A DNA stretch of 59,532 nt from Deltaproteobacteria bacterium (lineage in GTDB: Bacteria; Desulfobacterota; Syntrophia; Syntrophales; UBA2210). The position numbers and the translations under genes are program-made. Of this stretch, positions 3,419 through 31,465 are shown in pieces; position 1 is the first letter of the stretch, and each line of letters opens with the position of its first letter. The notes below the pieces were generated by a model, which had not been told where the DNA came from, ran no database searches, and saw nothing but the letters and a program-made list of their open reading frames with translations. The DNA is taken from contig JAFGTS010000044.1 of assembly GCA_016933965.1 (NCBI GenBank), forward strand, positions 1 to 59,532, given 5' to 3'.

Positions 3419-3823
3419 CTACAGTTCCACGACAGCCGTCGCCATGCTGAGGACGGCGACACTCTCCTGGTTGGTTACTTTCAGATCGAGGGAAACCGTG
3501 TTCCCCTCCACGGCTGTGACGGTTCCCTCCGTTGTGACCGTATCGCCAAGGTGAACGGGTCGCGCGAACCGGCACTTGATCCGTTTGAGAGCGCCCGGAT
3601 CACCGGTCCAGTCGGTAACGGTCTTGGTCATGAAACCGAAGGTGCACAGTCCGTGAAGAATGACACCGCCGAGGCCCACCATCTTGCCGAATTCCGGGTC
3701 GATATGAATAGGATTGAAATCCCCGGAAGCCCCCGCGTAATAAATGGTCCGGTATTTATCCACTTCTTCTGAGGCGGTGAAGACCTCTCCCACCTTGATG
3801 TCCTGTATCTGTTTTTTTGCCAT
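3419..3823 (-). CDS. MaoC-family (R)-specific enoyl-CoA hydratase, catalytic subunit
   Basis: A 134-residue hot-dog-fold protein. The hydratase-2 motif is intact: GASGDFNPIHIDPEFG, with Asp35 and His40 as the expected catalytic pair. It would add water across a trans-2-enoyl-CoA in the cytoplasm. Its partner is very likely the preceding gene, a second MaoC-type protein lacking this Asp/His pair, giving a heteromer like ChsH1-ChsH2 of cholesterol degradation, in which ChsH1 carries the catalytic residues. A GGGGGAAAC ribosome-binding site precedes the start and the gap to the previous gene is 11 bases. The substrate is unknown. Confidence 0.85.
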   Translation of the reverse strand: MAKKQIQDIKVGEVFTASEEVDKYRTIYYAGASGDFNPIHIDPEFGKMVGLGGVILHGLCTFGFMTKTVTDWTGDPGALKRIKCRFARPVHLGDTVTTEGTVTAVEGNTVSLDLKVTNQESVAVLSMATAVVEL

Positions 3824-3834
3824 GGCGTTTCCCC

Positions 3835-4272
3835 CTATTTCCGTATCACGAAGGTGAAGGTGGCTCTGCAGACCATGTTTCCCTTCTGGTTCCGGCTTTC
3901 ACCGACAAGGGTGACCACGTCAAGCTTTTCCTTGTTTTCGATGTTGACGATCTTCCCCTTTGACGTGATGACATCGCCGGGTTTGACCACCTCGAAGAAT
4001 TCGAAATCCTGTTCTCCGTGCACGAGCATGAACAGGTTCAGATTGATCTCGGGATCGAAGAAAAAGGGTTCCGCCAGCATGCCGGCATATACCACCGAAA
4101 AGGTCGGAGGAGCGATGACGCTTCCGTAGGGTGTAGTTTTCCCGAATTCATCGTCCATATAATGCGGATCGGGGTTCTTGATGGCCTTGGCGTATTCTTT
4201 TACTTTTTCCTTGCCGATCTCATAGGTCAGGGGACCGTACTCCTTCCCGATAAACTTAACGTCCACTGCCAT
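3835..4272 (-). CDS. MaoC N-terminal-like (FAS1-type) dehydratase, probable non-catalytic partner
   Basis: A 145-residue hot-dog protein resembling the MaoC_dehydrat_N/FAS1-like dehydratase group. At the position of the usual GDxNPxH motif it reads IKNPDPHYMDDEFG, so the aligned catalytic Asp is Asn33 and the aligned His is Tyr38 (a His lies one residue earlier). This suggests a structural or substrate-binding subunit paired with the catalytic MaoC protein encoded next. The start MAVDVKF at 4272 has a strong GGAGGAAAATCC site; a longer frame beginning at 4290 would overlap the upstream gene and lacks one. Confidence 0.8.
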   Translation of the reverse strand: MAVDVKFIGKEYGPLTYEIGKEKVKEYAKAIKNPDPHYMDDEFGKTTPYGSVIAPPTFSVVYAGMLAEPFFFDPEINLNLFMLVHGEQDFEFFEVVKPGDVITSKGKIVNIENKEKLDVVTLVGESRNQKGNMVCRATFTFVIRK

Positions 4273-4286
4273 GGATTTTCCTCCTC

Positions 4287-5444
4287 TCAAGAAGTGAACT
4301 TGTCCAGTTCGTTTTTCGCGATGAACACCCGCTGCATTTCAGAAGTGCCCTCACAGATTTCTCCGAACTTTGCGTCACGGTACAGGCGCTCCGCTTCACT
4401 ACCCTTGAGGTACCCGTGGCCGGCAAATATCTGCATGGTCCAGTTGGCTATCTTGGATGCGGCCTCGGTGGACAGGAGCTTCGCGCAGGCGCCAATGACA
4501 TCGGCCTCTTCTTCTCCTTTGTTCATCGCCCATGCGGCGCGAAGTGCCAGCATTCTGCCCAGGTCATTGTAGGTGAACATGTCGGCGAGCTTGAATCCCA
4601 CGTCTTGAAAGGAACCGATCTTCCTGCCGAAAGCCTTCCTGTTTTTAGCCTGTGCCGTGGCCTTTTCCATGCAGGCCGTTCCTATCCCGACTGAGAACGC
4701 CGTTATCCCGACGGTTCCCATGGAGAGTATCTTTTTCAGCTGGGCGTGTCCCCGGCCCGGTTCACCGCCGAGAAATTCTGCGGTCCTGCATTCCGAGAGG
4801 GATACCGAGCTGAGCGGAAGTCCCCGGAGGCCCATCGTGTCGATTGTCTCGCCGACGGTCAGCCCCGGCGCGCCTTTTTCGACGATGAAAAAACTCATCC
4901 CCGTCTCGGCGCCCGCCTCGGCTGACGTATAGGCCAGGACCAGAAGGAGATCAGCGATCGGCCCGTTGGCGACGATATCCTTTTCTCCCGTCAGAACCCA
5001 GGTATCACCCCCCTTTTTCGCCGCCGCGGTTATGCCGGATATGTCGGAACCGGCTTCCGATTCGGAATAGGCGACGGCCCCCACCAGATCACCCTTCAAG
5101 AGCCCCGGAAGATACCGTTCCTTTTGCGCGGCCGTACCGAAAAGAGCGATCAGGCCGCCGCAGAGAAAGGTACTCGCCCGGCCACTGAGATACGTAGCCG
5201 GACAGACCTTGGCGATCTCTTCAGCAACGATATAGTTGCTGATCATGTCAATACCGGCATCGTCCACCCCGGCGCCGAGAAAGCCTGCACCGGCAAGTTT
5301 TTTCAGGTTCTCTCTGAGCAGGGTGAAGGCTTTCTCTTTCGGGCCTTCATCAAGTTTCCGGGCCGACGGGGCGATCTCGGTGCTGCAGAAAGCAGCGGCT
5401 TCTAGCTGTAACTTCTTTTGTGCTTCGTTCAATTCATAGTCCAT
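4287..5444 (-). CDS. Acyl-CoA dehydrogenase, subunit with EGT catalytic Glu
   Basis: A 385-residue flavoprotein with the usual order: helical N-terminal domain, middle beta domain (SESEAGSDISGI FAD/substrate motif near 130) and C-terminal helical domain ending ICEGTSEMQR. Glu365 sits where medium-chain acyl-CoA dehydrogenases carry their catalytic base. It would oxidise an acyl-CoA to the 2-enoyl-CoA and pass electrons to ETF. It directly follows another ACAD gene whose equivalent residue is Gly, so the two may form an alpha2beta2 enzyme like the ChsE pairs for steroid side chains. The substrate is unknown. Confidence 0.88.
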   Translation of the reverse strand: MDYELNEAQKKLQLEAAAFCSTEIAPSARKLDEGPKEKAFTLLRENLKKLAGAGFLGAGVDDAGIDMISNYIVAEEIAKVCPATYLSGRASTFLCGGLIALFGTAAQKERYLPGLLKGDLVGAVAYSESEAGSDISGITAAAKKGGDTWVLTGEKDIVANGPIADLLLVLAYTSAEAGAETGMSFFIVEKGAPGLTVGETIDTMGLRGLPLSSVSLSECRTAEFLGGEPGRGHAQLKKILSMGTVGITAFSVGIGTACMEKATAQAKNRKAFGRKIGSFQDVGFKLADMFTYNDLGRMLALRAAWAMNKGEEEADVIGACAKLLSTEAASKIANWTMQIFAGHGYLKGSEAERLYRDAKFGEICEGTSEMQRVFIAKNELDKFTS

Positions 5445-5461
5445 AGCAATACCCCCACATC

Positions 5462-6610
5462 CTACATTAACATGATTCTTGAGACGATCATCCGCATGAT
5501 GTCGGATGTTCCGCCGCCGATTGCACCGAGCCGGGCATCCCGGAAGTTACGCTCCACGGGATATTCGTGCATGAAACCGTAACCGCCGAATATCTGGACG
5601 GCCTGCGAGGCCATTTCGAATCCCATGTCACCGGCATAGACCTTGTTGACCGCCGCCTGGAGCGGGTTGAGCATCTGGCCGTTGTCCTTTGAGGAAGCAA
5701 CGCGGTAAATGGCCAGTTTCGCCGCTTCGACGAAAACCCGCATGTCGGCGATGCGATGCTGTATCGCCTGGAATTCGCGAATGGGCCGGTTGAACTGATA
5801 CCGCTCATTGGCATACCGTGAACAGAGCTCGATCCCGTAAATGGAAGAACCGAGGAAGGGAGAGAGCAGGGTGGAGCGGTCCCATTCGACGCCGCTGAGC
5901 GCGATCATCCAGCCGGCACCTTCACCGCCCAGGACGTTCTCCGCGGGGATCTCGCAGTCTTCGAAAAAGACCTCGGAGGTTGTCGAACACTTGCATCCCA
6001 TCTTGTGGAAAGGCTGGCCCGTCGAAAAACCCGGCGTTCCCTTTTCAACGACGAAGGCGGTGATACCCTTGTGCTTCAACTCCCGGTCGATACTGGCGAA
6101 AACAACGATCACGTCGGCCACGGGGGCATTGGTGATAAACGTTTTCGATCCGTTGAGAACATAGGAGTCACCCTTCCTGGTGGCCGTGGAACGCATCGAT
6201 GCCGCGTCGGAGCCCGCGCCGGGTTCGGTGAGACCCATGCATCCGATCCATTCTCCCGAGGCAAGCTTGGGCACATACTTCTTCTTCTGCTCCTCGGTGC
6301 CGAAGTTGAATATGTTGCAGGCACAGAGATAGGTGTGGGCTCCCCAGGCGAGAAGACTGCCGCCGTCGACACCGGCATGGCCGAGCGCCTCGCCCGCCAG
6401 GCAGCAGGTAACGATGTCCGCGCCGGAGCCGCCCAATTCCTCAGGGAACGGCAGGCCGAGAAGTCCCATATCGGCAAGCTTCTTCCAGATCTCAAAGCTG
6501 AATTCCCCCTTCAGGTCGGCTTCTTCACAGAGCGGAGTGATTTCTTCCTTTCCGTATCGGTATACCGTTTCCCTGAACATTCTTTGCTCGTCGCTGAGCG
6601 TGAAATCCAT
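5462..6610 (-). CDS. Acyl-CoA dehydrogenase, paired subunit lacking the EGT Glu
   Basis: A 382-residue ACAD starting MDFTLSDEQRMF. The middle domain has LTEPGAGSDAASM, and a GGYGFMHEYPVER helix is present. The C-terminal motif reads AIGGGTSDIM, so the medium-chain-type catalytic Glu is replaced by Gly366; on helix G, where isovaleryl-CoA dehydrogenase has LER, it reads WDR. The catalytic base is therefore altered (Asp) or absent. The start at 6610 is chosen for its GAGGAGGATGAT site; the frame continues 11 codons further up, into the previous gene. It lies 17 bases before the catalytic ACAD gene. Confidence 0.87.
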   Translation of the reverse strand: MDFTLSDEQRMFRETVYRYGKEEITPLCEEADLKGEFSFEIWKKLADMGLLGLPFPEELGGSGADIVTCCLAGEALGHAGVDGGSLLAWGAHTYLCACNIFNFGTEEQKKKYVPKLASGEWIGCMGLTEPGAGSDAASMRSTATRKGDSYVLNGSKTFITNAPVADVIVVFASIDRELKHKGITAFVVEKGTPGFSTGQPFHKMGCKCSTTSEVFFEDCEIPAENVLGGEGAGWMIALSGVEWDRSTLLSPFLGSSIYGIELCSRYANERYQFNRPIREFQAIQHRIADMRVFVEAAKLAIYRVASSKDNGQMLNPLQAAVNKVYAGDMGFEMASQAVQIFGGYGFMHEYPVERNFRDARLGAIGGGTSDIMRMIVSRIMLM

Positions 6611-6626
6611 ATCATCCTCCTCACAT

Positions 6627-7097
6627 CTATTGTACCGGTTCAAAGTATTTAATATCCAGAATGTGGCCCTTCCGTTCTTCCTTCCACACGGCCCTGACCT
6701 TCATGCCGTTCTTGACGGTTTTTCTGACAAGGTCCGCGTCACGCAGGTCAAATCCACCGACGAGATGGAGAAAGCTGGAATCAGTGCCGTCGAGCCGTAT
6801 CAGCGCGCCGATGAACGGGGGTTTTGTGGGCATGCCGAAGTACTCGTAATCGGTAAGGACCCACGATACGATGGCCCCTTCCTGTGATACCTCGGTTATG
6901 TCGTCGGTCTCGACAAAGCAGCGGGGACAGAAGGAGCGGGCCGGGACAAGGACCCGGTTGCACCGGGAACATCTCGAGCCGTAGATCTTCTTTTCCACCA
7001 GTCCTTCAAAAAAACGCGTCCATACCGGTCCGTACACGTTCTCGTAGGGTATGGCCACCTCATCTTCCAGAATATACAGGTCTTGTTTTTCTTCCAT
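6627..7097 (-). CDS. DUF35 zinc-ribbon/OB-fold protein (first of a tandem pair)
   Basis: A 156-residue protein with an N-terminal helix, a rubredoxin-like zinc ribbon (Cys43, Cys46, Cys57, Cys60; CSRC...CPRC) and a C-terminal OB fold ending GHILDIKYFEP. DUF35 proteins hold thiolase-superfamily enzymes together and channel CoA intermediates, as in the archaeal acetoacetyl-CoA thiolase/HMG-CoA synthase complex, BbsAB and Ltp2-ChsH2. It is clearly a tandem duplicate of the next gene up and lies between two thiolase-like genes and two ACAD genes, so it probably scaffolds the thiolase-like pair. Confidence 0.88.
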   Translation of the reverse strand: MEEKQDLYILEDEVAIPYENVYGPVWTRFFEGLVEKKIYGSRCSRCNRVLVPARSFCPRCFVETDDITEVSQEGAIVSWVLTDYEYFGMPTKPPFIGALIRLDGTDSSFLHLVGGFDLRDADLVRKTVKNGMKVRAVWKEERKGHILDIKYFEPVQ

Positions 7098-7118: not shown

Positions 7119-7583
7119 CTATGACAAAGGCGCGAAATACTTGATATCAAGTATGTGGCCTTTTCTTTCATCGTTCCACACGGCCTCGACCCGTGCGCCT
7201 TTCCGGATCACTGAACCGACCGACTCCGGACTGGTCGTATCGAAGCCGCCGAGCAGATGCAGCAGGTTGCAGTCGGTCCCGTCGAGCTTGATAAGGGCGA
7301 TCACCACGGGAGGCTTTCCCGGCATGCCGAAGAATTCCTTGTCCGAATAGACCCAGGAAACGACCTCACCCTGCTGTGAGACCTCCACCGATGTGTCCAG
7401 GTTTTTCTGGCACTGCGGGCAGGAACTTCGCGCGGGGACGAAGGTCATGTTGCAGGAGGGGCAGGAGGTGCCGTATATCCTGCCTTCCTTGAGCCCGTTG
7501 TAGAACTGCGTGAATGTCCGGCCGGCCGCGTACTTATGGGGAAGCCTGACAACATTGTTAAATGTATCATAATCTCTTTTCAT
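7119..7583 (-). CDS. DUF35 zinc-ribbon/OB-fold protein (second of a tandem pair)
   Basis: A 154-residue DUF35 protein with zinc-ribbon cysteines 41, 44, 55 and 58 (CPSC...CPQC) and an OB fold with the same ERKGHILDIKYF ending as its neighbour. Conserved stretches include EFFGMPGKPP and LIKLDGTDCNLLHLLGGFD. The start has a GGAGGGGCAACG site. The two DUF35 genes suggest one scaffold subunit for each of the two thiolase-like proteins encoded directly upstream, at 7595-9913. Confidence 0.88.
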   Translation of the reverse strand: MKRDYDTFNNVVRLPHKYAAGRTFTQFYNGLKEGRIYGTSCPSCNMTFVPARSSCPQCQKNLDTSVEVSQQGEVVSWVYSDKEFFGMPGKPPVVIALIKLDGTDCNLLHLLGGFDTTSPESVGSVIRKGARVEAVWNDERKGHILDIKYFAPLS

Positions 7584-7594
7584 CGTTGCCCCTC

Positions 7595-8761
7595 CTACTT
7601 TTCTGAGCCGAGAATCATCACGCCGTTGAACTGGTCAACACCGCCCATGGCATGGGCAAGCGCCAATTTCGCTCCCGGTATCTGATGAGCTCCCGCCTGG
7701 TTCGTTACCTGCATCGCTGCTTCCACCACCCTGTTGAGACCGGTGGCGCCGATGGGGTTCGTGCACAGAGTGCCGCCCGACGGGTCGCAGGGCAGTTCCC
7801 CGGTGCGCGAGAAGACGCCGTTCAGGGTAAGGTCACAGGCTTCACCGAAGTCGCAGAATCCGAAGCATTCATAATAGAGGAGCTCCTGGAATGTAAATGG
7901 ATTGTAAACTTCCGCCACGTCGAGTTCTTTTCTCGGGTTCTTTATGCCCGCCATATCATAGGCCTGGCGTGATGCATTGATGGCACACTGCCATATCGCC
8001 TTTTCACTGTCGCCGAACCAGTATTCCTCGCCGCTGTAGCCGACACCCTTGATCCAGGCGGCTTTCTTGCCCAGTTTCCTGACCATGTCCTCCGAGGCAA
8101 AGATGGCGGCGCAGGCGCCGTCCGAGTTGGGACACACGTCCCACAACCGCACCGGATAGGTGATGATCCGTGCATTGTTCACCTCGTCCTCGGTCAGCTT
8201 CTTCTTGATATGGGCATAGGGGTTGTCGAAGGCATCATTGTGGTGATCGATCGACAGCCGCGTCGCCGCCGCCCTTACCTTTTCCTCGGGGATCCCGAAT
8301 TTGACCGACCATTCCTGGGACTGCATCGAAAAGACGCCAGGTGCGCCGGCGATGAAGAACCTCTGGTAAAAAGGCTCCAGAACGGTGGTCATCGTTGCCT
8401 GGGAGTCCCCTTCGTTCATCTTCTCGGAGCCCACCACAAGGACCAGATCGGCCAGGCCCGACGCCACCCAGTAGTACCCGGTGATAGCGAGTGATACCCC
8501 CGTGGAGCCGCAGGTCTCGGTCTTCAGGATCGGTTTACCCACTGAACGGAGCACGTCGGCAAAATAGAAGTGGGTGAGGGCGACGCCCTCCATCATCGAA
8601 GGCATGGTTCCCGAGACGACGCCCTCGATATAATCTGGTGAGATGCCGGTGTTCTCGAATACAGCATCAACGGCCTCCTTCACCAACTCGGGATAGGTAA
8701 CATCGAACCTCCGGCCATGCTTTGTCTGTCCTGATCCTATTATTGCAACTGGTCTTCCCAT
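7595..8761 (-). CDS. Thiolase-like protein (SCP-x/Ltp type) with nucleophile Cys
   Basis: A 388-residue thiolase-fold protein. It is the only one of the five in this window with a candidate nucleophile, Cys84, in KTETCGSTG. The usual His of the HPxGA loop is Asn (SGGTLCTNPIGATG), and the second catalytic Cys near the C-terminus is missing (AMGGVDQFNG). A normal Claisen thiolase would need these residues, so activity may be altered or shared with its partner. It is followed by two DUF35 genes and preceded 9 bases upstream by a divergent thiolase-like gene, which fits a hetero-oligomer. An AGGAGG site precedes the ATG. Confidence 0.85.
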   Translation of the reverse strand: MGRPVAIIGSGQTKHGRRFDVTYPELVKEAVDAVFENTGISPDYIEGVVSGTMPSMMEGVALTHFYFADVLRSVGKPILKTETCGSTGVSLAITGYYWVASGLADLVLVVGSEKMNEGDSQATMTTVLEPFYQRFFIAGAPGVFSMQSQEWSVKFGIPEEKVRAAATRLSIDHHNDAFDNPYAHIKKKLTEDEVNNARIITYPVRLWDVCPNSDGACAAIFASEDMVRKLGKKAAWIKGVGYSGEEYWFGDSEKAIWQCAINASRQAYDMAGIKNPRKELDVAEVYNPFTFQELLYYECFGFCDFGEACDLTLNGVFSRTGELPCDPSGGTLCTNPIGATGLNRVVEAAMQVTNQAGAHQIPGAKLALAHAMGGVDQFNGVMILGSEK

Positions 8762-8770
8762 AATTCCCTC

Positions 8771-9913
8771 CTAACTGCCGATGATCGCAACAGCATGGCA
8801 CTGTCCGGCAAAACCATGCGTTGAATGGGCCATCGCCGTCGTTACATCTCTGTTCAACTGCCGTTCACCCGCTTCTCCCCTGATCTGCAGGAAGCACTCC
8901 GCCAGACGGTACATGCCCCGCGAAACATACGGATTGAGGGCCAGAACGCCACCGGAAGGGTTGACCGGTATATCGCCGTCCGGCCGAGTCGCTCCGCTGT
9001 CGAGGAGCTTCCCTCCCTGGCCGGCGTCGCAGAATCCCAGGTCTTCGTACCAGAGAAGTTCTTGGAACGAATAGGGTTCACAGATCTCAGCAAGGTCGAT
9101 TTCCTTTTTCGGGTTCCTGATCCCCGCCATGCTGTACGCTCTCTTGGCGGCGTTCGGCAGTTCCCCCTTGAGGAGGTCCCTGTCGCCGACATAGAAACGG
9201 TCGATGGAGGAGCCGTAACCCTTCAGCCAGACCGGCTTGGGGGTCAGTTTTTTGGCCAATTCCTCTTTTGCCAGCACCATGGCTATGATGCCTTCCGATT
9301 TCGGCGCGCATTCCATGATTCTCAGCGGGTCCATGACGATCTCCGAGGAGAGGACATCGGTAACATCAAGCTTCTTCTTGATATGCGCGTAAGGATTTTT
9401 CAAGGCGTTCCCGAGATTTTTCACCACGACGCCGGCGCACTGCTCATCCGTGACGCCATAGCGGGCCATATATTCCCGTTTCTGCAGGGCCGCGGCGACC
9501 GTCTCGTTCAGGCCGACCTGGCGCTGGTAGAAGGGGTCGGTGAAGAAGTGGGTCAACATGTCGTTTTCAGGATTTTCGGAACCCTTGCAGATACCCAGGA
9601 CAAGGGCCGTATCGTAACTGCCCGAAAGGATACGCATGACGGCGTAAATGAACGCGAACAGGGATTCTCCGTCCTGCCGCGACCCGTTTTTCAGAAAGGC
9701 CGCGCCCGCATCCCAGTAATAGGAATTTGCGCAGGAAATGCCGCCGTGGAACACGTCCGAAGATGCGCTGATCACCGTTCCCAGTTCATCGCGGGACACG
9801 CCGGCCTTGTCCAGGACTTCCTTGCATACGCGGAATATCTGGTCAAGGAAGTTGTCCCTTGTTTCCGTTCCCGGTGTCATGGCAACCTCAACAATTCCAA
9901 CACGATTTGCCAT
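8771..9913 (-). CDS. Thiolase-like protein without catalytic Cys (type II)
   Basis: A 380-residue thiolase-superfamily protein starting MANRVGIVEV at an ATG with an AGGAGG site. The nucleophile region reads GSRQDGESLF (around 78-86), so no Cys is present; the His loop is LNPYVSRG and the C-terminal motif is THGFAGQCH. It resembles the product of 15686-16828 closely (shared DPFYxR, GDRDL, AxRAYxMAGxxNP and LGFCDxGxGG), and both stand directly before a type I thiolase-like gene. It may be a retro-aldolase like Ltp2 or a structural subunit; beta-ketothiolase activity on its own is unlikely. Confidence 0.82.
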   Translation of the reverse strand: MANRVGIVEVAMTPGTETRDNFLDQIFRVCKEVLDKAGVSRDELGTVISASSDVFHGGISCANSYYWDAGAAFLKNGSRQDGESLFAFIYAVMRILSGSYDTALVLGICKGSENPENDMLTHFFTDPFYQRQVGLNETVAAALQKREYMARYGVTDEQCAGVVVKNLGNALKNPYAHIKKKLDVTDVLSSEIVMDPLRIMECAPKSEGIIAMVLAKEELAKKLTPKPVWLKGYGSSIDRFYVGDRDLLKGELPNAAKRAYSMAGIRNPKKEIDLAEICEPYSFQELLWYEDLGFCDAGQGGKLLDSGATRPDGDIPVNPSGGVLALNPYVSRGMYRLAECFLQIRGEAGERQLNRDVTTAMAHSTHGFAGQCHAVAIIGS

Positions 9914-10075: not shown

Positions 10076-11878
10076 TTACGCTTCCGAGGGGTGCATCTTC
10101 TGGATAGCGTCCTTGTGTTTTTCCATGACCACTTTTCGCTTTACCTTGAGCGATGGCGTCAGCTCCCCCGTGTCTTCCGAGAAGGTCTGCTTGACGATGT
10201 GGTAGTACTTTATCGTTTCGTATTGTGCCAAGTGACTGTTTCGTTCGGCAACGCACTTGTCCACAAGGGCTCGGAAATCGTCACGGTCGAGCAGTTCTTC
10301 CGGCTTGGAGAAGCTCAGTCCCTCCTCGGCGGCAAGCCGCCCCGCTTCTTCAAGGTTTATATTGATAAGGGCCACGAGATACTTCATGCGGTCACCGATG
10401 ACGACGAACTGCTCGAAAAGCGGGTTCTGCTTGAAAAGGCCCTCGATGTTCTGGGGAGCGATGTTCTTGCCCCCCGCCGTGATGATAAGGTCTTTCTTGC
10501 GGTCCGTGATCTTCAGGTAGCCGTCCTCGTCAAATTCGCCGATGTCCCCCGATTTCAGCCATCCGTCCTCGGTGAAAGCCTCCTTTGTCTGCTCGGGCAT
10601 TTTCCAGTACCCGCTGATGACGTTGCCTCCCTTTATGAGAATTTCACCATCCTCTGCGATCCTGACCTCGTTGCATGACAGGGGGGTACCCGCAGTGCCG
10701 AACTTGTAGTTGTCGAGCTTGTTCAGCGTCGCCGGCGCGCTGCACTCGGTCATGCCATACCCTTCTATAAGAAAAATACCGGCGGCGTTGAAGAAATCGG
10801 CTATGTCCCTCGCGAGGGGGGCTCCCGAAGCGACCATCCAGCGGGTGCGCCCGCCAAGGGCCTGCCGCAATTTCTCAAAGACCATCTTGTAGGCGATCTT
10901 GTATTTCAGGTTGAGGAGCGGCGGTATCGATTTCTTCTGCTCCATCATTTTGCTGACTTCTGCGCCGACACCGACGGCCCAGTTGAAGACGGCCTGTTTC
11001 CATTTGGGCTGTGTTTTGGCCTGCCCGAGGATCTTCGCATAGACCTTTTCACATACCCGGGGAACGGCCAGCAGGACCGTGGGCTTCTTCGTCTGTATGT
11101 CTTCCACGATCGTGTCGAAGCTTTGCGTATAGTGCGTGTAGATACCAACACACATGGCGAAGAAGTGTCCCGCTACCCGCTGGAACACATGACAGAGTGG
11201 CAGAAAAGCCACCAGGACATCCCGGTCATCGGCCCAGTGCATGCCGTCAAGTGCCTCACAGACGGAAAGAATGTTTCCGTGAGTTATCATGGCCCCTTTC
11301 GGCGGACCCGTGGTACCCGATGTGTAAACAAATGTCGCCAGGTCGTCTCGTTCAACGGCGTCGGTCAGGGTTTCAAAGAGACCTGGCTCCCGGGCGGCGA
11401 GCTCCTTGCCCCGGGCCACCAGTTCGTCAAAGCTCATCAGCAGGTCGGACGACATGTCACAGCCCCGGGGGTCGATGACCACGATCTTTTCCAGGGTCGG
11501 ACAGTCGTCCAGGACATCGAGACCCTTCTGGAGGGCGGTCTTGTCCTCCGCTATGTAGATCTTCGATTCCGAGTTGCTGATGATATAACCCACTTCATGA
11601 GCGGGCAGGGTGACGTAAATGGGGATCGTCACGGCCCCGATGCCGATGATGCCAAGATCGGAAAGGATCCACTCGATCCGGTTCTGGGCCAGGAGAGAGA
11701 CGCGGTCTCCCCTCCTGACACCGAGGCTGTAAAGCCCGAGTCCGACATGGCGGGCGCCGTCGTAATACTCCTGCCAGGAGATACCTTTCCAGACCCCATC
11801 AAGCCGCTTCTCGACGGCGAGGCGTGATCCGTATTTCTTTGCCTGGTCCCGCAATATCTGTGCAAGATTCTTTTCCAT
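10076..11878 (-). CDS. AMP-forming long-chain acyl-CoA synthetase
   Basis: A 600-residue adenylate-forming enzyme of the FadD15/long-chain group. The phosphate loop YTSGTTGPPKG lies at 185-195, the adenine motif is EGYGMTECSA, and the GWLKSGDIGEFDEDGYL and DRKKDLIITAGGKNI motifs complete the core. It converts a free acid, ATP and CoA to acyl-CoA, AMP and pyrophosphate at the start of the pathway. It sits inside the operon between the beta-keto acid cleavage gene and the second thiolase-like pair. Long-chain specificity is inferred from family only; steroid or isoprenoid acids are also activated by such enzymes. Confidence 0.9.
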   Translation of the reverse strand: MEKNLAQILRDQAKKYGSRLAVEKRLDGVWKGISWQEYYDGARHVGLGLYSLGVRRGDRVSLLAQNRIEWILSDLGIIGIGAVTIPIYVTLPAHEVGYIISNSESKIYIAEDKTALQKGLDVLDDCPTLEKIVVIDPRGCDMSSDLLMSFDELVARGKELAAREPGLFETLTDAVERDDLATFVYTSGTTGPPKGAMITHGNILSVCEALDGMHWADDRDVLVAFLPLCHVFQRVAGHFFAMCVGIYTHYTQSFDTIVEDIQTKKPTVLLAVPRVCEKVYAKILGQAKTQPKWKQAVFNWAVGVGAEVSKMMEQKKSIPPLLNLKYKIAYKMVFEKLRQALGGRTRWMVASGAPLARDIADFFNAAGIFLIEGYGMTECSAPATLNKLDNYKFGTAGTPLSCNEVRIAEDGEILIKGGNVISGYWKMPEQTKEAFTEDGWLKSGDIGEFDEDGYLKITDRKKDLIITAGGKNIAPQNIEGLFKQNPLFEQFVVIGDRMKYLVALININLEEAGRLAAEEGLSFSKPEELLDRDDFRALVDKCVAERNSHLAQYETIKYYHIVKQTFSEDTGELTPSLKVKRKVVMEKHKDAIQKMHPSEA

Positions 11879-11932: not shown

Positions 11933-12793
11933 TTATTTCTGTTTAATTCCCATCAATTTCCGTGCTTCGTCCGGTGTGGCCGGTTCACGCCCGAGACAGG
12001 AAGCGATCCTGACGGCCCATTCAACCTGCTCATAGCTTCCCTTCGCCAGATCACCATTCGGCACCCGGATATTATCTTCAAGCCCTACCCGCATGTGTCC
12101 GCCCATGAGGCAGGAGAGAGTGATCGCCGGAAACTGGTCGATACCGACACCGCAGGTGGTGAAGTTTGCGTTTTCAGGAAGCGCGTTCACCATGGCGACG
12201 AAGCATTCGGGCCTGAAACGCTGCCCGCCGGCGACGCCCCAGACGAAGTTGAAATTTATCGGGTCCGAGAAGATCCCCTGCTTCTGGATCAGCAGGGTGT
12301 TGTCGAGACCGCCCAGGTCATAGCATTCGATCTCGGGCTTTACACCGTTCGCTTCCATTGCTTTGCCGAAATCCTGCAGCATGGTGAAGGTGTTTTCAAA
12401 GACATAATCGATCATGATCTGTCCCGTGCCGCGATCAACGATACCGAAGTTCATCGTGTTCGTGTTCAGTGAGGCCATTGCGGGCTTGACGGCGACGATC
12501 TGCTCGATCCTCTGTTCTTTCGTCGCACCCATGCCGACGGCGGAACTCAGATTGACGATGAGATCGGGGCATCGCTCCTTGATCGCGTCATGGGTCGCCT
12601 GGATCCTTTCGATCACGTGCGTCGGCATTCCCTCGTCGCCCCGCGCGTGGACATGAACCATGGCGGCACCCGCCTTATAACAACGTTCCGCCTCGTCGGC
12701 GAATTCCTGAGGCGTATAGGGAACGGCTGGATTCTGGTTCTTGAAGGTTCCGGCGCCCGCCAGGGCGGCACAAATAATAACCTTTTTCGACAT
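11933..12793 (-). CDS. Beta-keto acid cleavage enzyme (BKACE, DUF849)
   Basis: A 286-residue TIM-barrel protein of the DUF849 family. The metal-binding HVHAR motif is at 47-51, with NLSSAVGMG, the SLNTNTMNFG strand and GGHMRVGLEDN near the C-terminus. Characterised BKACEs (founder: 3-keto-5-aminohexanoate cleavage enzyme Kce) take a beta-keto acid and acetyl-CoA to acetoacetate and a new acyl-CoA, using divalent zinc and no thiolase-type Cys. In this operon it offers a second, thiolase-independent way to cut a beta-keto intermediate. It has a strong AAGGAGGG site and follows a DUF35 gene. Confidence 0.88.
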   Translation of the reverse strand: MSKKVIICAALAGAGTFKNQNPAVPYTPQEFADEAERCYKAGAAMVHVHARGDEGMPTHVIERIQATHDAIKERCPDLIVNLSSAVGMGATKEQRIEQIVAVKPAMASLNTNTMNFGIVDRGTGQIMIDYVFENTFTMLQDFGKAMEANGVKPEIECYDLGGLDNTLLIQKQGIFSDPINFNFVWGVAGGQRFRPECFVAMVNALPENANFTTCGVGIDQFPAITLSCLMGGHMRVGLEDNIRVPNGDLAKGSYEQVEWAVRIASCLGREPATPDEARKLMGIKQK

Positions 12794-12839: not shown

Positions 12840-13304
12840 TTACAGGGGTTCAAAATGATCAAGGTCCAGAATTGTGTTCGTCGTTTCCTGCGCATACACG
12901 GCCTTTACCCGCATGCCGACCTTCACGTCCTCCACATCGATACCCTCCACGATGTGAGCGAAGGGCGTATCGGCGCCGTCCACCTTGATAAGCGCGAGAA
13001 TATAGGGTGCGCGCCGCGGAAGATGCTTGTCGTTGTAGTAGACGATCGTGTAGTTGGTGATGACGCCCTCATCGGAGAGCTCCACCCAGTTCTCGTCTAT
13101 CTTGGAGAAGCATCTCTCACAGTATTCACGGGGCGGAATAAAAACCTTGTTGCACTTATCACATTTGACCCCGAGGATCTTGTGATCATCCCGGAGGGAG
13201 ATGATGAACTTTGTTCCGACCCTCCCGGCGAAGTACTGGTTGGGCAAGGCCATCTTCCCCGTAAACACTCTGCAGTCTTTCGTTATTTCTTTGATTACGG
13301 CCAT
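12840..13304 (-). CDS. DUF35 zinc-ribbon/OB-fold protein
   Basis: A 154-residue DUF35 protein starting MAVIKEITKD at 13304 (AAGGAGGAC site; a longer frame would run into the upstream gene). The zinc ribbon is CDKC...CERC and the OB fold ends TILDLDHFEPL. The stretch DGADTPFAHIVEGIDVEDV is typical of the family. It is the fourth gene of the block 12840-16828, in the same position that a DUF35 gene holds in the block 6627-9913. Probably a scaffold partner of the two thiolase-like proteins encoded upstream. Confidence 0.87.
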   Translation of the reverse strand: MAVIKEITKDCRVFTGKMALPNQYFAGRVGTKFIISLRDDHKILGVKCDKCNKVFIPPREYCERCFSKIDENWVELSDEGVITNYTIVYYNDKHLPRRAPYILALIKVDGADTPFAHIVEGIDVEDVKVGMRVKAVYAQETTNTILDLDHFEPL

Positions 13305-13317
13305 TGGTAGTCCTCCT

Positions 13318-14475
13318 TCAGTCGGCGATCTCAAAGTAGAGGAGATCCTTGTACGTTCCCGTTCGCTTTTCCGCCCACACCGGACGGACCTTCATACCCG
13401 GTTTTATCCGGTCGATGTCCCGTGGATTCAGATCATGGGCGAAACTCTCGTCCCGTGATCCTCCATCAAAGACCATGAACAGGGCCGTATAGGGGGTTTT
13501 CCGAATCTTTCCGGTCAGCGGATCGGGACTGGCATAGTACACAACGTCTATAAGGGTGACCGTAGCCTCCGGGCCAACCTCGACGAATTCCGTGGCCCGC
13601 ACCCGGCACTGCGCGCAGATCTCCCGGGGCGGAACCATCAATTTTCCGCAATTGGGACATTTGGACGCGATGAACTTCTTTTCCTTCAATCCCGAGAACC
13701 ACTTGCCAACGATGGGTCCCGTGGCGTATCGCTGATCGATCGACGGGATGCATTTCAGGGAGATAAGTTCTTCACCCTTTTCCTCCGCCGCGCCCTCAGC
13801 TTGAAACTTGGAGAAGAATTTCGCCGTCGCGCCGGCGGCCCCGATATCGCCGTCGATCTTCACCTGGCCCGAAGTGAATGCCGTCGCCCCGTCGAGCTTT
13901 CCCGTATTGAGATCGACGAAGACCTGGGCGTCCATTTTCATGGTGACGATACAGTCGCCGTCAAGCTCGTTCTTGACGGAGCAGGCGCCCTCCTTGACGA
14001 TCACCGTCCACTGACCGCCACCCTCGCCAGCGAGATCGTAACCGATCTTCATGTCAGCGCCTTCGGCCTTGTCGGGACGGAACCGCTCGGGCATGCTTTC
14101 AATGATACTGCTTGCCCGCACGATGGGCGTAAAGGGACGGAAGGCCTTCGGCAGGACCGCGATGAGAACGGTCAGATCCCCGTCGACGGAAATGTTTCCT
14201 GACGAAAGGGCCTCACCGGCGTCTATTTTCCCCAGGGTAACACCCACGAAAGTTTCCGCCTTGGCGTTGAGGATAGCCGTGCAGCCTGAAACTTCAGCGT
14301 CCAGTTTTTCAACGGTGAGGGCCCCCTTCTTTATCGTGACCTTCCAGTGTCCGCCGCCTTCTCCCGAAACATTGTATCCGATGGTGACATCCACATCCTG
14401 TGTTCCCTCCGGAAGAAAGCGAACCTCCATGGTATTGAATATATCTTCTACTCTTGAACCAAAGTATTCAGCCAT
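13318..14475 (-). CDS. Fusion protein: SCP2-SCP2-DUF35
   Basis: A 385-residue protein starting MAEYFGSRVEDIF (ATG at 14475 with a GGAGG site). Residues about 1-112 and 115-230 are two sterol-carrier-protein-2-like domains with the same core (VDVTIGYNVSGEGGGHWKV and ADMKIGYDLAGEGGGQWTV, then ALSSGNISVDGDL and AFTSGQVKIDGDI). Residues about 240-385 form a DUF35 domain with a CPNC...CAQC zinc ribbon and an OB fold ending DLLYFEIAD. SCP2 domains bind hydrophobic acyl-CoAs, so this looks like a substrate carrier built into a thiolase scaffold. It immediately follows two thiolase-like genes. Confidence 0.85.
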   Translation of the reverse strand: MAEYFGSRVEDIFNTMEVRFLPEGTQDVDVTIGYNVSGEGGGHWKVTIKKGALTVEKLDAEVSGCTAILNAKAETFVGVTLGKIDAGEALSSGNISVDGDLTVLIAVLPKAFRPFTPIVRASSIIESMPERFRPDKAEGADMKIGYDLAGEGGGQWTVIVKEGACSVKNELDGDCIVTMKMDAQVFVDLNTGKLDGATAFTSGQVKIDGDIGAAGATAKFFSKFQAEGAAEEKGEELISLKCIPSIDQRYATGPIVGKWFSGLKEKKFIASKCPNCGKLMVPPREICAQCRVRATEFVEVGPEATVTLIDVVYYASPDPLTGKIRKTPYTALFMVFDGGSRDESFAHDLNPRDIDRIKPGMKVRPVWAEKRTGTYKDLLYFEIAD

Positions 14476-14485
14476 TGCCAACCTC

Positions 14486-15673
14486 CTACCAGTTTAAGTC
14501 TTTCTCGAGCATCATGAGAACGGTCCATAAGGTTCCACCGAAGCCCGAGGCGAGGGCGTGCCGGACCTCCTTCTTGATCTGCTGGGGACCCGCGTCGCCG
14601 CGGATCTGCAGTGCCGCTTCAGCCGGGCGGAGCATTGCAGTCGCCCCGATGGGGTTGCTTGCGATAACACCGCCCGAGGGATTGACAGGGAGCTTGCCGT
14701 CCAGGTCGAATTCACCTTCCTCCAGCATTCTCAAATGTTCGTCATCGTCCAGAAGCAGAAATTCCCGCAGCCAGTCAAGGCCCCACCACGCGGAGGGGTC
14801 GTACATTTCAAAGACGTCGAAATACTCGACGGGATTTTTGATGCCGTTGCGCTCGAAAAGCTTCCGGGCGGCATAGTGATGGGTCATTTCCGGCATGTCG
14901 ATACCGAAATTATTGAAGGTTTCTTCCCGGTGAACGGTGATGTGGTCCCGGACCCACACGGGGTTTTTGCTGAACTTCTTGGCCTTTTTCTCGGCAGCGA
15001 AGATCATCACGCAGGCGCCGTCGCTCTGTGAGCACATGTGGATCAGACGGAGCTCACCCACCAGCTGGGGAGACGTGTTCATCAGTTCCTCAAGCTGATC
15101 GTATTCGAGGCCGAAACGCCGATGAGCACGGGGGTTGAGACAGGCGTGCTTGTCCATCAGGATCCGGTACTTCATGGCCGCTCTTCGTGCCCTGTCTTCG
15201 CCGAATTCATCTATCATCATCGTGGCCGTCGTGGCCGTCAGGGCGCCGGTCTGCAAATGGCGGAACCAGAGGGGGTCGGCCATATTGGTGATGCCGCCCG
15301 TGGTATGCCCTTCCTGAAGTTTTTCGAGTCCGATGGCCATGACCACGTCATACATGCCCGATGCCACGAGATTGTCGGCGGCGCAGACGAGGGTGGCACC
15401 GGTGGTGCCGCCCGTGGTGATCCTGAACTGATCCTTTCCGAATGCACCGGAGCCCAGCGCGTGCCACATGTCAGGCTGGTGGACCATCTCGAAGAGTTCC
15501 ATGTTCCCGTGGATGACGCAATCAATGTCATCCAGCGTGATGTTCGCGTCCTCCAGTGCATATCGAACGGCTTCGTTGACCATTTCCACCTGGTTCTGGT
15601 GCTCCTTATGGCTTGAAAATTCGGTCTGGCCGATGCCGATTATCCCCACATTTCTGTTTTTCTTTTTTCCCAT
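14486..15673 (-). CDS. Thiolase-like protein, Cys replaced by Gly (type I)
   Basis: A 395-residue thiolase-fold protein. Where the Cys-bearing neighbour has TCGSTG it reads TTGGTTGA, giving Gly88 in the nucleophile position. The His loop is SGGVIASNPIGATA with Asn in place of His, and the C-terminal catalytic Cys is absent (ASGFGGTLW). Fold landmarks such as DGACVMIFAAEKKA and NPSGGV are intact, so this is not random decay. It follows the type II gene at 15686-16828 and precedes the SCP2-DUF35 fusion. Retro-aldolase or acyl-CoA-binding roles are possible; thiolysis by the classic mechanism is not expected. Confidence 0.83.
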   Translation of the reverse strand: MGKKKNRNVGIIGIGQTEFSSHKEHQNQVEMVNEAVRYALEDANITLDDIDCVIHGNMELFEMVHQPDMWHALGSGAFGKDQFRITTGGTTGATLVCAADNLVASGMYDVVMAIGLEKLQEGHTTGGITNMADPLWFRHLQTGALTATTATMMIDEFGEDRARRAAMKYRILMDKHACLNPRAHRRFGLEYDQLEELMNTSPQLVGELRLIHMCSQSDGACVMIFAAEKKAKKFSKNPVWVRDHITVHREETFNNFGIDMPEMTHHYAARKLFERNGIKNPVEYFDVFEMYDPSAWWGLDWLREFLLLDDDEHLRMLEEGEFDLDGKLPVNPSGGVIASNPIGATAMLRPAEAALQIRGDAGPQQIKKEVRHALASGFGGTLWTVLMMLEKDLNW

Positions 15674-15685
15674 GGTCCTTCCTCC

Positions 15686-16828
15686 TTATTTCTCCAGCAC
15701 GAGGACTGAATGAAATTGACCCGCGCCTCCGGTGATGCTGTGGGCAACGGCCCGCTTCACATCAGCTGCCTGATGTTCGCCCGCCTTACCCTGGAGCTGG
15801 AGCACTGCCTCCGCGGCACGATACAGGCCGCCCGTCATGAGGGGATTTCCGGCCAGCATGCCGCCCGAAAGATTGACGTTGCACTGTGCCGGTCCGTTTT
15901 CGTCGATGAAACCGCCTCCCGTTCCTTCATCACAGAAACCGAGGCCTTCGAGCCACAGGGGCTGCTGGTATGCGTAACAGTCCATGAGTTCCACAAGGTC
16001 CACGTCTTTTCTGGGGTTCTTTACGCCTGCCATGCGGTAGGCACGCGCGGCCGCCTTCTTCAGGGCGAAATTGCCCGTCAGGTCCCGGTCTCCCAGAAAG
16101 TATGAGTCCATGCAGCTGCCGAACCCCGTGAGCCATACGGGATTGTCCGTGAATTCATGGGCCCGCTCCTCAGAGGCGAGCAGAATCGCCACGGCGCCAT
16201 CTGAAACGGGATAGGCATGGAGCGTGCGAATGGGATCACAGAGCATGGGTGAGAACATGACTTCCCCCGGTTCCACCTGTCCCGTCGCGTTCGCCTTTGG
16301 GTTCCGCGCCGCCCACTGTCGTGCCCTGACGACGACCTTTGCCAGCTGTTCTTCGGTCAGGCCTGATTTTTCCATGTATGCCCGTGCCTGAAGTGCCGAG
16401 GTGTTCAGATAGTCAAGGCCCATGGCCCTGCCGTAAAAAGGATCATAGGCGAGATTGGTGCACATGTTCCTGCTCTCGGCCTGGGATTCCTTGCAGTGAC
16501 CGGCGACATACACCAGGTCCTGATGTCCCGAGAGGATTATCGCCATGGCGTACCCCAGGGCGTTGAGCCCGTCCTGGGCCATTTTTTCCTCCTCGCGGTA
16601 GTGCGCACCGACAACATCGGTCATGCCGTTGTCGGATATGGTCCGGGCGTCGAAGACATCGTCCGAGGCGGTGACAATGGTCTGAACGCCGTTTTCTTCA
16701 GAGAAGTTCACGCCTGTCTGTTCCTGAATTTCTTCGAGAACATCAAGGAGCATGCCCTGAAACCGCTTGTACCAGAGATTTGAATCACATTTGTGCTGTG
16801 CGACAGCACAGACGGCAACCCTTTTCAT
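15686..16828 (-). CDS. Thiolase-like protein without catalytic Cys (type II)
   Basis: A 380-residue thiolase-superfamily protein. The nucleophile region reads EKMAQDGLNALGYAM, with no Cys; the His loop is AGNPLMTGG and the last motif is ITGGAGQFH. It is the closest relative in the window of the 8771-9913 product, sharing ASDDVF, DPFYGR, GDRDL, AYRMAGVKNPRKD and LGFCDEGTGG. First thiolase-like gene of the operon, after the PHP gene. Probably the partner of the type I protein encoded 12 bases downstream. Confidence 0.82.
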   Translation of the reverse strand: MKRVAVCAVAQHKCDSNLWYKRFQGMLLDVLEEIQEQTGVNFSEENGVQTIVTASDDVFDARTISDNGMTDVVGAHYREEEKMAQDGLNALGYAMAIILSGHQDLVYVAGHCKESQAESRNMCTNLAYDPFYGRAMGLDYLNTSALQARAYMEKSGLTEEQLAKVVVRARQWAARNPKANATGQVEPGEVMFSPMLCDPIRTLHAYPVSDGAVAILLASEERAHEFTDNPVWLTGFGSCMDSYFLGDRDLTGNFALKKAAARAYRMAGVKNPRKDVDLVELMDCYAYQQPLWLEGLGFCDEGTGGGFIDENGPAQCNVNLSGGMLAGNPLMTGGLYRAAEAVLQLQGKAGEHQAADVKRAVAHSITGGAGQFHSVLVLEK

Positions 16829-16862: not shown

Positions 16863-17444
16863 TCAAGCCAACATTATCGCCCGTGCCTGGCCCCTGGCAT
16901 AGCAATTAATCACATCGCCGGCTTTGATTGTTCTGATGATGGAATCTCTGTCCTTCGGACAGTCAACCTCTATCCATGCCCGCCCGCACCCCAGTGTCGT
17001 GTGCGAGTCATCCGAGGCGACCTTGGGGTAGGGGATGGCATCAATATCATATTCGGGTGTGAGAAAACCGTGGTGGGTGATCTCCACGGCATCGATGGGG
17101 TACTCCTTCGCCACGTCGTTGATGCAGGTGATGGTTTGTTTCATGGTAAAGCCATAGTCTCCCGGGTGATTGAAGGTGTGGAGTATCTCGGTATCTCCTT
17201 CGATGCGGCTGACATGAACATACCCGAAAGGTGTGCCCACGGTCAGTTCGATCCCGAAAAAAACCATAAGCTCCGTCTTCACACTGGTGACGGCATCACG
17301 ATAACTCGGTTTCAAAAGATGGTCATGGTCGGTGAACGCGATGAAATCGAACCCCAGCCTGGCATACGTGTCGGCTGCTTCCTGCGGTGTCAGCCTGCCG
17401 TCGGAGAATGTTGTGTGAATATGAAGCTGACCTTTCAGGCGCAT
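16863..17444 (-). CDS. PHP-domain metal-dependent hydrolase
   Basis: A 193-residue PHP-fold protein. Metal-binding motifs are visible: LHIHTTFSDG (His8, His10), FTDHDH (Asp39-His42), a His at FNHPGD, ITHHGF and SDDSHT near 148. PHP proteins are phosphoesterases or other metal hydrolases in the cytoplasm. The protein is shorter than DNA polymerase-type or histidinol phosphatase PHPs. It lies between the TetR regulator and the first thiolase-like gene on the same strand, so it is probably part of the operon. No clear ribosome-binding site precedes the ATG. The substrate is unknown. Confidence 0.8.
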   Translation of the reverse strand: MRLKGQLHIHTTFSDGRLTPQEAADTYARLGFDFIAFTDHDHLLKPSYRDAVTSVKTELMVFFGIELTVGTPFGYVHVSRIEGDTEILHTFNHPGDYGFTMKQTITCINDVAKEYPIDAVEITHHGFLTPEYDIDAIPYPKVASDDSHTTLGCGRAWIEVDCPKDRDSIIRTIKAGDVINCYARGQARAIMLA

Positions 17445-17487: not shown

Positions 17488-18126
17488 TTATTCGCGGCAC
17501 AGGTCCTTATCGATGGTTCCTCCCGTTTCTCCCGCCGCGGCGGTCATCGCACCGCAGAGAAATATCCGGATGATGGCGTTTATCGTTCGTTCGGCCCGCT
17601 GCCTGTTCAGTTTCTCCTTGCCCAGGACCATCACGGAGATAAAGGCTTCCATGGCTCCGAGGAAAATGTACGTCATGTAATGAGGCGGTACATCCTTCCT
17701 GAGAATGCCCTTCTTCTGGGCGTCCGACATGATCTCATCGCACATGGTAAAGAACTTTCTGAACCGCATCAGTCCCCGTTCCGTGCGGTAGAGGGAACTG
17801 CGGGAAACCTCCGTGATGAAGATGGAAAGCAGGAAAAAACGATTTGAGTAGGTATCAAGGAAAAACCTGATGATGTTCGCCAGTTTCTCCTTCAGTTCCG
17901 CGTCCGATTGCCGCTGGTTCTCGAGCATTTCATAGAGGGTGTTCCACCACTTCTCTACGATGTTGTCGAAAAAGGCCTCCTTGCTTTCAAAGTAATGGTA
18001 CACGAGACCGTATGAAACGCCGGCTTTCTTGGCAATGTCGGCCATGCGGGTGTTGGCATAGCCTTTCTCGCAGAACACTTCGAGAGCCGCATCAATGATC
18101 ATTTCTTGTTTGTCGTTCTTAGCCAT
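17488..18126 (-). CDS. TetR/AcrR-family transcriptional repressor
   Basis: A 212-residue regulator with an N-terminal TetR helix-turn-helix (residues about 8-55; MADIAKKAGVSYGLVYHYFESKEAFF) and a helical C-terminal ligand domain. It stands at the head of the minus-strand catabolic operon and opposite an acyl-CoA dehydrogenase gene. A perfect palindrome, ATTGACATGTCAAT, covers the TTGACA of its own predicted promoter, and near-identical sites lie upstream of the divergent ACAD and of the CoA-transferase genes. Many TetR proteins of this kind are released from DNA by an acyl-CoA; that the ligand here is a pathway CoA ester is inference. No ribosome-binding site is seen before the ATG, which fits a leaderless mRNA. 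Confidence 0.88.
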   Translation of the reverse strand: MAKNDKQEMIIDAALEVFCEKGYANTRMADIAKKAGVSYGLVYHYFESKEAFFDNIVEKWWNTLYEMLENQRQSDAELKEKLANIIRFFLDTYSNRFFLLSIFITEVSRSSLYRTERGLMRFRKFFTMCDEIMSDAQKKGILRKDVPPHYMTYIFLGAMEAFISVMVLGKEKLNRQRAERTINAIIRIFLCGAMTAAAGETGGTIDKDLCRE

Positions 18127-30331: not shown

Positions 30332-30458
30332 AAATTTATAGGATTTTCATGCCCCACATCCATGAAAAACGTTTCCGGTTCGGAGCAAAGGGGAAAGGAC
30401 AACCATCCGGGAATTCTTTGCCGCGCAGGCGGGATACAGACAGAAGGAGGAGAAAGCG

Positions 30459-31448: not shown

Positions 31449-31465
31449 GGGAAGGGGGCGATACC

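Follow-up and report, generated by a model that had tools for sequence, protein, structure and literature searches.

The window analyzed here comprises positions 1 to 59,532 of contig JAFGTS010000044.1 (assembly GCA_016933965.1) of a Deltaproteobacteria bacterium. Its minus strand carries a conserved unit of 14 genes (16828 to 3419), transcribed in the order ThlA, ThlB, SCP2-SCP2-DUF35, DUF35b, beta-keto acid cleavage enzyme (BKACE), acyl-CoA synthetase, ThlC, ThlD, DUF35d, DUF35c, ACAD1, ACAD2, HadA-like, and HadB-like. Gaps between these genes are at most 54 bases, with the sole exception of 159 bases upstream of ThlC. The last four genes, separated by 11 to 17 bases, encode two acyl-CoA dehydrogenases (ACADs) and two MaoC-fold proteins: ACAD1 (5462..6610), ACAD2 (4287..5444), a HadA-like protein (3835..4272), and a HadB-like protein (3419..3823). 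A PHP-domain gene and then a TetR gene lie upstream of ThlA. We estimate a probability of roughly one half that this is a TetR-controlled catabolic operon with which an anaerobe degrades a beta-branched acyl-CoA, by using the ACAD pair, the HadA/B-like hydratase and retro-aldolase-like complexes.

An initial annotation of the window correctly reported these four genes, their transcription order and four sets of residues: Gly366 in ACAD1, Glu365 in ACAD2, Asn33/Tyr38 in the HadA-like protein and Asp35/His40 in the HadB-like protein. It also proposed that each pair includes one degenerate subunit, and took this subunit to be ACAD1 among the dehydrogenases. ACAD1 is assigned to the ACADs by Pfam, and its best match in the Protein Data Bank (PDB) is isovaleryl-CoA dehydrogenase (IVD; 4o5m, 335 bits). 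Gly366, within the sequence GGGTSD, is at the position of Glu376 in MCAD, and Asp244 is at the position of Glu254 in helix G of IVD. IVD and LCAD use this helix-G Glu as the catalytic base and have Gly or Ala where the Glu usually is (PMC11153573, PMC11659651). The helix-G position of ACAD1 is acidic, as in IVD-type ACADs, but the residue is Asp, not Glu. The motifs that contact flavin adenine dinucleotide (FAD) are complete on both the flavin side and the ADP side. The Asp244 position (WDR) and the GGGTS sequence are present in every ACAD1 orthologue that can be aligned, the truncated L027 being unreadable at these positions. Gly366 was therefore rejected as a mark of an inactive enzyme, because an invariant acidic residue occupies the IVD base position.

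The ACAD2 protein, identified by alignment and motif comparison as a divergent paralogue, has Glu365 (EGTSE) at the usual base position and Gly243 where IVD has its helix-G base. On the flavin side, KDIVAN replaces the KxFITN motif, so that the aromatic residue and the Thr are lost; the ADP-side motifs are kept. In the predicted structure, the flavin loop (residues 133 to 137) is the only stretch with a predicted local distance difference test (pLDDT) score below 50. Three states of ACAD2 are found among relatives. The protein is intact in L026 to L036, has lost its flavin contacts but kept its Glu in the window and in the relatives closest to it, and has exchanged the Glu for Tyr or Cys (AYGTSE or ACGTSE) in a sister clade (L017 to L025, L034, and L179). 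The loci of this clade adjoin BKACE and ThlA/ThlB operons that do not include a HadA/HadB pair. Across the same relatives, ACAD1 sequences are 60% to 91% identical and ACAD2 sequences 40% to 66%, and the divergence of ACAD2 is 1.5 times that of ACAD1. Because Asp244 is invariant and the FAD motifs are complete in ACAD1, whereas ACAD2 shows decay and faster divergence, ACAD1 is likely the catalytic subunit and ACAD2 a drifting partner. This reverses the earlier assignment within the dehydrogenase pair; for the hydratase, the Asn33/Tyr38 protein is the degenerate member, as had been proposed.

The ACAD1-ACAD2 pair is found well beyond the host species. A search of 149 relatives with ACAD1 yielded 34 loci, two of which are cut by contig ends, and ACAD2 directly follows ACAD1 in all 32 that can be judged. 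Genes in these loci were predicted with a codon-usage caller, which fails on L049 and L060. A scan of contigs from other genomes produced three true relatives, namely a Deltaproteobacteria metagenome-assembled genome (MAG; L060), which is the nearest named relative, and two Spirochaetia/Spirochaetes MAGs (L061 and L062); the remaining matches are generic ACADs. No relative was found in the viral contigs searched. The gene arrangement is not due to chance, because the adjacency is conserved across the host order, other families of the phylum, and Spirochaetia. Trees of ACAD1 and ACAD2 resolve the same three groups, and their distances have a correlation of 0.91. The pairing and the residues thus support the earlier suggestion of paired, probably heteromeric, dehydrogenases and hydratases.

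The hydratase pair combines one member with the Asp/His dyad and one partner in which the His is replaced by Tyr, as in ChsH1-ChsH2. Across an alignment of 13 sequences, neither Asp35 nor His40 varies. The HadB-like protein matches PF01575 (96 bits), and its match to HadB (3.7e-17) is better than that to ChsH1 (1.6e-8). The 145-amino-acid HadA-like protein, which lacks the catalytic dyad, matches the HadA/HadC family in a sequence search of the PDB, and ChsH2 is not matched at E values up to 1. Its modeled fold is also closer to HadA (Z score of 15.6) than to 4w78 (13.2). ChsH2 has an inert MaoC domain fused to DUF35, and no such fusion is present in the HadA-like protein; the DUF35 genes of the window are separate. 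The curated NCBIfam cut-offs are not reached by either protein (76.8 of 180 bits for HadA and 75.9 of 203 bits for HadB). Judged by sequence and predicted fold, the pair resembles HadAB without being a member of that family. In mycobacteria, HadA and HadB form an (R)-3-hydroxyacyl-ACP dehydratase from adjacent genes for an inert and a catalytic hot-dog protein, and this enzyme is the best sequence and fold match of the window pair, which differs in residing in a catabolic CoA operon. Binding of the acyl chain falls to HadA and HadC and catalysis to HadB (PMC11321319), and a similar division of labor is a reasonable model for the window proteins.

The operon also contains two pairs of thiolase-fold genes, each with DUF35 neighbors, an association that is conserved in relatives. 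ThlB (14486..15673) and ThlD (7595..8761) have Gly (Gly89 and Gly85, respectively) in place of the nucleophilic Cys, Tyr (Tyr291 and Tyr286) in place of the His in the HDCF motif, and Asn in place of the His in GHP. The absence of the Cys and the presence of the Tyr are common to all intact ThlB and ThlD sequences. Their partners, ThlA (15686..16828) and ThlC (8771..9913), are degenerate and have lost the Cys segment; ThlC has also lost the Tyr in the clade of the window. One member of each pair therefore carries the Tyr that the retro-aldolases Ltp2 and Sal use as a base (PMC12329534). Ltp2 and Sal, as well as Ltp3/Ltp4, also share with the window proteins the thiolase fold, the lack of a nucleophilic Cys and the DUF35 partners; the two-subunit arrangement is a difference. 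No 3-hydroxyacyl-CoA dehydrogenase is encoded in the operon, which is expected if cleavage occurs by a retro-aldol reaction. An aldolase partnered by DUF35 had been placed downstream of the four genes; aldolase-like and DUF35 genes are indeed part of the same operon, but they lie upstream of the ACADs.

The DUF35 proteins c (6627..7097, with zf-ChsH2 and OB domains) and b (12840..13334) were recognized by domain search, and protein d (7119..7583) matches 3irb (2.6e-13) and, weakly, the DUF35 domain of ChsH2 (6ok1_B, 0.015). A further protein (13318..14481) unites two SCP2 domains and a DUF35 zinc ribbon in a single chain, and this gene is kept beside ThlB. The BKACE gene (11933..12793) has a match of 309 bits to PF05853, and its NCBIfam KCE score (272.7 bits) is below the cut-off of 382. 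In three relatives, DUF35 is fused to the N terminus of BKACE (L051:15842-17269, L055:17315-18742, and L062:3761-5200), which suggests that BKACE joins the thiolase-like/DUF35 complex. A role of BKACE in acting on the product of AtuA was considered and dropped, because the products described for AtuA are acetate and a 3-ketoacyl-CoA (PMC4847356). The remaining gene of the unit (10076..11878) encodes an AMP-forming acyl-CoA synthetase similar to FadD11/FadD15 on the basis of domain and family profiles.

The operons of relatives provide evidence on the substrate. In L171, L172, and L044, the ACAD pair heads an operon with genes for carboxyltransferase, biotin carboxylase, biotin carboxyl carrier protein, enoyl-CoA hydratase and AtuA, and in L050 the pair is beside the first four of these genes and a BKACE gene. 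L173 and L174 belong to the family of L171 and L172, but there the pair is part of a window-type operon that includes GctAB-like CoA transferase genes. The Atu pathway serves to get past a beta-methyl group, which blocks beta-oxidation (PMC4847356). The common factor of operons with the ACAD pair would be a beta-branched acyl-CoA. Because this pair stands where the dehydrogenase belongs in the AtuA/carboxylase operons of relatives, the substrates are likely isoprenoid or other beta-methyl-branched acids, in agreement with the branched or bulky acyl-CoA anticipated in the initial annotation. The window operon shares this pair with the Atu-type operons of relatives, and the IVD-type base position with the Atu/Liu pathway (citronellyl-CoA/isovaleryl-CoA dehydrogenase, carboxylase, hydratase, and AtuA), but neither a carboxylase nor AtuA/LiuE is present beside its dehydrogenases, and it has HadA/HadB and aldolase-like complexes in their place. 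The same genome contains a complete carboxylase-hydratase-AtuA-ACAD-TetR operon (L166:4892-13192, G000:C14) with a single, different ACAD.

The operons of L054, L173, and L174 include the GctA-like orthologue, and the window orthologues are on the plus strand at 30453-32236. The GctA-like subunit (30453..31448) is 64% identical to that of L054, and the GctB-like subunit (31466..32236) is 73% identical to its L054 counterpart and matches glutaconate CoA-transferase (1poi_B, 1.6e-47). Identity as IpdAB was rejected because GctB is the better match. Searches of the 2.85-Mb genome detected approximately 45 ACAD matches, but no cytochrome P450, no haem-copper oxidase subunit I (COX1), and no dsrA. 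The absence of P450 and COX1-type oxidase is consistent with the proposed independence from oxygen, sulfate reduction was rejected for lack of a dsrA match, and a fermenting or syntrophic life would fit the data.

The four-gene order had been equated with fadE28-fadE29-chsH2-chsH1 of the igr operon for cholesterol side-chain degradation. The two systems do share an ACAD pair and a hydratase pair encoded together, one inert hydratase subunit with a His-to-Tyr exchange, and a DUF35-partnered, Cys-less thiolase-fold aldolase. ChsE-type enzymes are alpha2beta2 heterotetramers with two FAD. However, in ChsE-type ACADs, one subunit contributes the flavin side and the catalytic Glu and the other the ADP side of complementary FAD half-sites (PMC11153573), and this division is absent from the window pair, in which ACAD1 keeps both sides and ACAD2 has lost flavin contacts only. 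ChsE chains (4x28 and 6wy8) are not among the best 60 solved structures for either ACAD1 or ACAD2, which have their best structural matches among isovaleryl-, butyryl-, and short-chain ACADs. Comparison of the ACAD2 model by VIA-align also retrieved no ChsE chain among the best 50, a result that excludes nothing by itself. The window further differs from the igr operon in its free-standing DUF35 proteins, in its paired aldolase genes upstream of the ACADs, and in the additional BKACE and SCP2-DUF35 genes. Direct homology of the window genes to ChsE and ChsH was rejected on the basis of the structure-match ranking and the sequence and fold matches of the hydratases. As judged from these alignments, the ACAD pair belongs to a family different from the cholesterol side-chain dehydrogenases; what the window shares with the igr system is its logic, without membership in the FadE28/29 or ChsH1/H2 families.

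True ChsE-type pairs are nevertheless encoded elsewhere in the genome. The ACAD pairs of L160 (G000:C31) and L161 (G000:C22) have the exact complementary FAD split, and the ACAD-alpha subunit of L161 has clear best matches to ChsE4 (4x28_A, 2.9e-65) and Tcur3483 (6wy8), with ACAD-beta as the complementary half. The L161 cluster (L161:4525-14787), a paralogue of the window operon, has the order BKACE-ThlC-ThlD-DUF35-DUF35-ACS-ACAD-alpha-ACAD-beta-ACS (ACS, acyl-CoA synthetase), and its ThlC and ThlD are 64% to 67% identical to those of the window. The igr-like cluster of L160 (L160:5968-10562) comprises thiolase-like, DUF35, MaoC, ACAD-alpha, ACAD-beta, and TetR genes. Because of the FAD split and the ChsE4-like alpha subunit, igr-like logic in an anaerobe fits L160 and L161 better than the window locus. 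Upstream in L160 are genes for a phytoene-desaturase-like protein and an HpaB/AbfD-like flavoprotein, whose score against TIGR02309 (194 bits) is below the cut-off of 480. Four more clusters of this genome, L162 to L165 (G000 C43, C34, C47, and C32), follow the same theme: thiolase-like genes accompany an ACAD and either MaoC or HadA/HadB, in most cases together with DUF35. BKACE is also present in L163, and L164 keeps the canonical thiolase residues (HDCF and GHP).

The genes present, their pairing, and the conservation of residues and partners are read directly from the sequence; from them we infer the following steps. The synthetase would form the CoA thioester, and an ACAD1-ACAD2 complex would introduce a 2,3-double bond, with ACAD1 as the catalytic subunit, Asp244 as the base, and ACAD2 shaping the pocket or the assembly. 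The HadA/HadB-like heteromer might then hydrate the enoyl-CoA, with HadB providing Asp/His and HadA the acyl pocket. The resulting 3-hydroxyacyl-CoA would be tertiary at C3 and could not be oxidized. Complexes of ThlC/ThlD with DUF35 and of ThlA/ThlB with DUF35/SCP2 could cleave it by a retro-aldol reaction to acetyl-CoA (or propionyl-CoA) and a ketone or keto acid. BKACE perhaps reacts a beta-keto acid with acetyl-CoA to yield acetoacetate and a new acyl-CoA. Free acids may be reactivated by the GctAB-like CoA transferase. We infer that hydration and retro-aldol cleavage replace carboxylation in this anaerobic route for beta-branched acyl-CoA. Only tentatively can the more specific proposal be made, that the operon is a carboxylase-free anaerobic beta-methyl bypass in which a HadA/HadB heteromer hydrates to a tertiary alcohol, a two-subunit, Cys-less thiolase-fold/DUF35 retro-aldolase cleaves it, and the paired dehydrogenases form a new family with a helix-G Asp base.

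Several observations weigh against degradation of a beta-branched acyl-CoA by this route. No precedent was found for Asp instead of Glu at the IVD base position, and ACAD2 of the window may be active, because Glu365 is kept. The ACAD1-ACAD2 heteromer is suggested by pairing and residues, and shared descent alone could account for part of the similarity of the two trees. The second catalytic acid is Cys304 in Sal and Tyr344 in Ltp2. In ThlB and ThlD, the residue after the Tyr-Asp/Asn is Pro, where Sal has the catalytic Cys304 and Ltp2 has His, so this position supplies no candidate for the general acid. Operons of type iii (L046, L047, and L179) do not include the HadA/HadB pair. The substrate is assigned by association with the partners in relatives, and for BKACE and GctAB the proposed roles are guessed from family membership.

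Alternatively, the substrate could be a reduced ring acid that the operon opens or trims, in the manner of anaerobic degradation of polycyclic aromatic hydrocarbons, in which dehydrogenation adjacent to a ring carbon likewise leads to a tertiary alcohol that requires a lyase. Anaerobic naphthalene degradation follows the same logic of an ACAD, hydration to a tertiary alcohol, and a lyase (PMC11659651, PMC12016498); the thn operon thus represents an anaerobic answer to a tertiary 3-hydroxyacyl-CoA, it also has a heteromeric MaoC hydratase (ThnHI), and the many ACADs of the genome would suit such a substrate. However, the naphthalene lyase ThnQS is AtuA-like and not of the thiolase fold, and ThnO is homotetrameric and has its Glu at the usual position (PMC11659651, PMC12016498). 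Because no aryl-CoA reductase genes were seen in the window, and the AtuA/carboxylase partners in relatives suit methyl branches better, we consider an alicyclic substrate unlikely. Ordinary beta-oxidation of fatty acids by redundant paralogues, each working alone, is more improbable again. In favor of this reading, ACAD1 has the full set of residues that an independent homotetramer requires, and Glu365 and the ADP-side FAD motifs are retained in ACAD2, but the adjacency of the two genes in all 32 loci that can be judged, the loss of flavin contacts and the exchange of Glu for Tyr or Cys in the sister clade argue for a joint function, and Cys-less thiolases in an operon devoid of a 3-hydroxyacyl-CoA dehydrogenase are at odds with the standard cycle.

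The idea of oxygen-independent steroid side-chain degradation draws on the order ACAD-ACAD-MaoC-MaoC, the DUF35 and aldolase-like genes, the SCP2 domains in the operon, and the union in L161 of close ThlC/ThlD homologues with a true ChsE4-like subunit. The window ACADs are not ChsE-like and the hydratases are HadA/B-like, and no P450 and no C25-dehydrogenase-type gamma subunit (EB_dh, PF09459) was found in the genome, in a search that covered few steroid markers. A steroid substrate thus has no support and is very improbable. At least as improbable is a synthetic direction, in which aldol or Claisen additions make a branched lipid or polyketide-like product. HadA/HadB and thiolase-fold/DUF35 enzymes do function in synthesis, for example HadAB in the FAS-II system for mycolate and PhlABC, which window proteins match. 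Nonetheless, the acyl-CoA synthetase, the acyl-CoA dehydrogenases and the FadR/YsiA-like TetR point to catabolism, and the operon encodes no ketoreductase or carrier protein.

If degradation of a beta-branched acyl-CoA by hydration and retro-aldol cleavage is correct, bacteria would be able, independently of oxygen, to degrade acids whose beta-carbon blocks beta-oxidation, and would spend no ATP on carboxylation. The ACAD2 series, from intact through loss of flavin contacts to loss of the base beside a fixed ACAD1, would represent a graded evolution of heteromeric ACADs, apparently apart from that of the cholesterol ChsE enzymes. The Cys-less thiolase/DUF35 pairs, which are currently annotated only as thiolase-domain proteins, form a testable set. 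A further lesson is that a dehydrogenase with Gly at the EGT position need not be dead.

An Rfam scan of the window gave no match. The TetR regulator (17488..18126, minus strand) was recognized by domain search and has a YsiA/FadR-like C-terminal domain. The minus-strand PHP-domain gene, also identified by domain search, is between TetR and ThlA at 16863..17444 and is kept in L042, L046, L047, L177, and L179. At 22535-23971, the window encodes a thiolase-domain protein that scores above the NCBIfam PRK06365 cut-off (698.6 versus 695 bits), the description of this family being only that it contains a thiolase domain.

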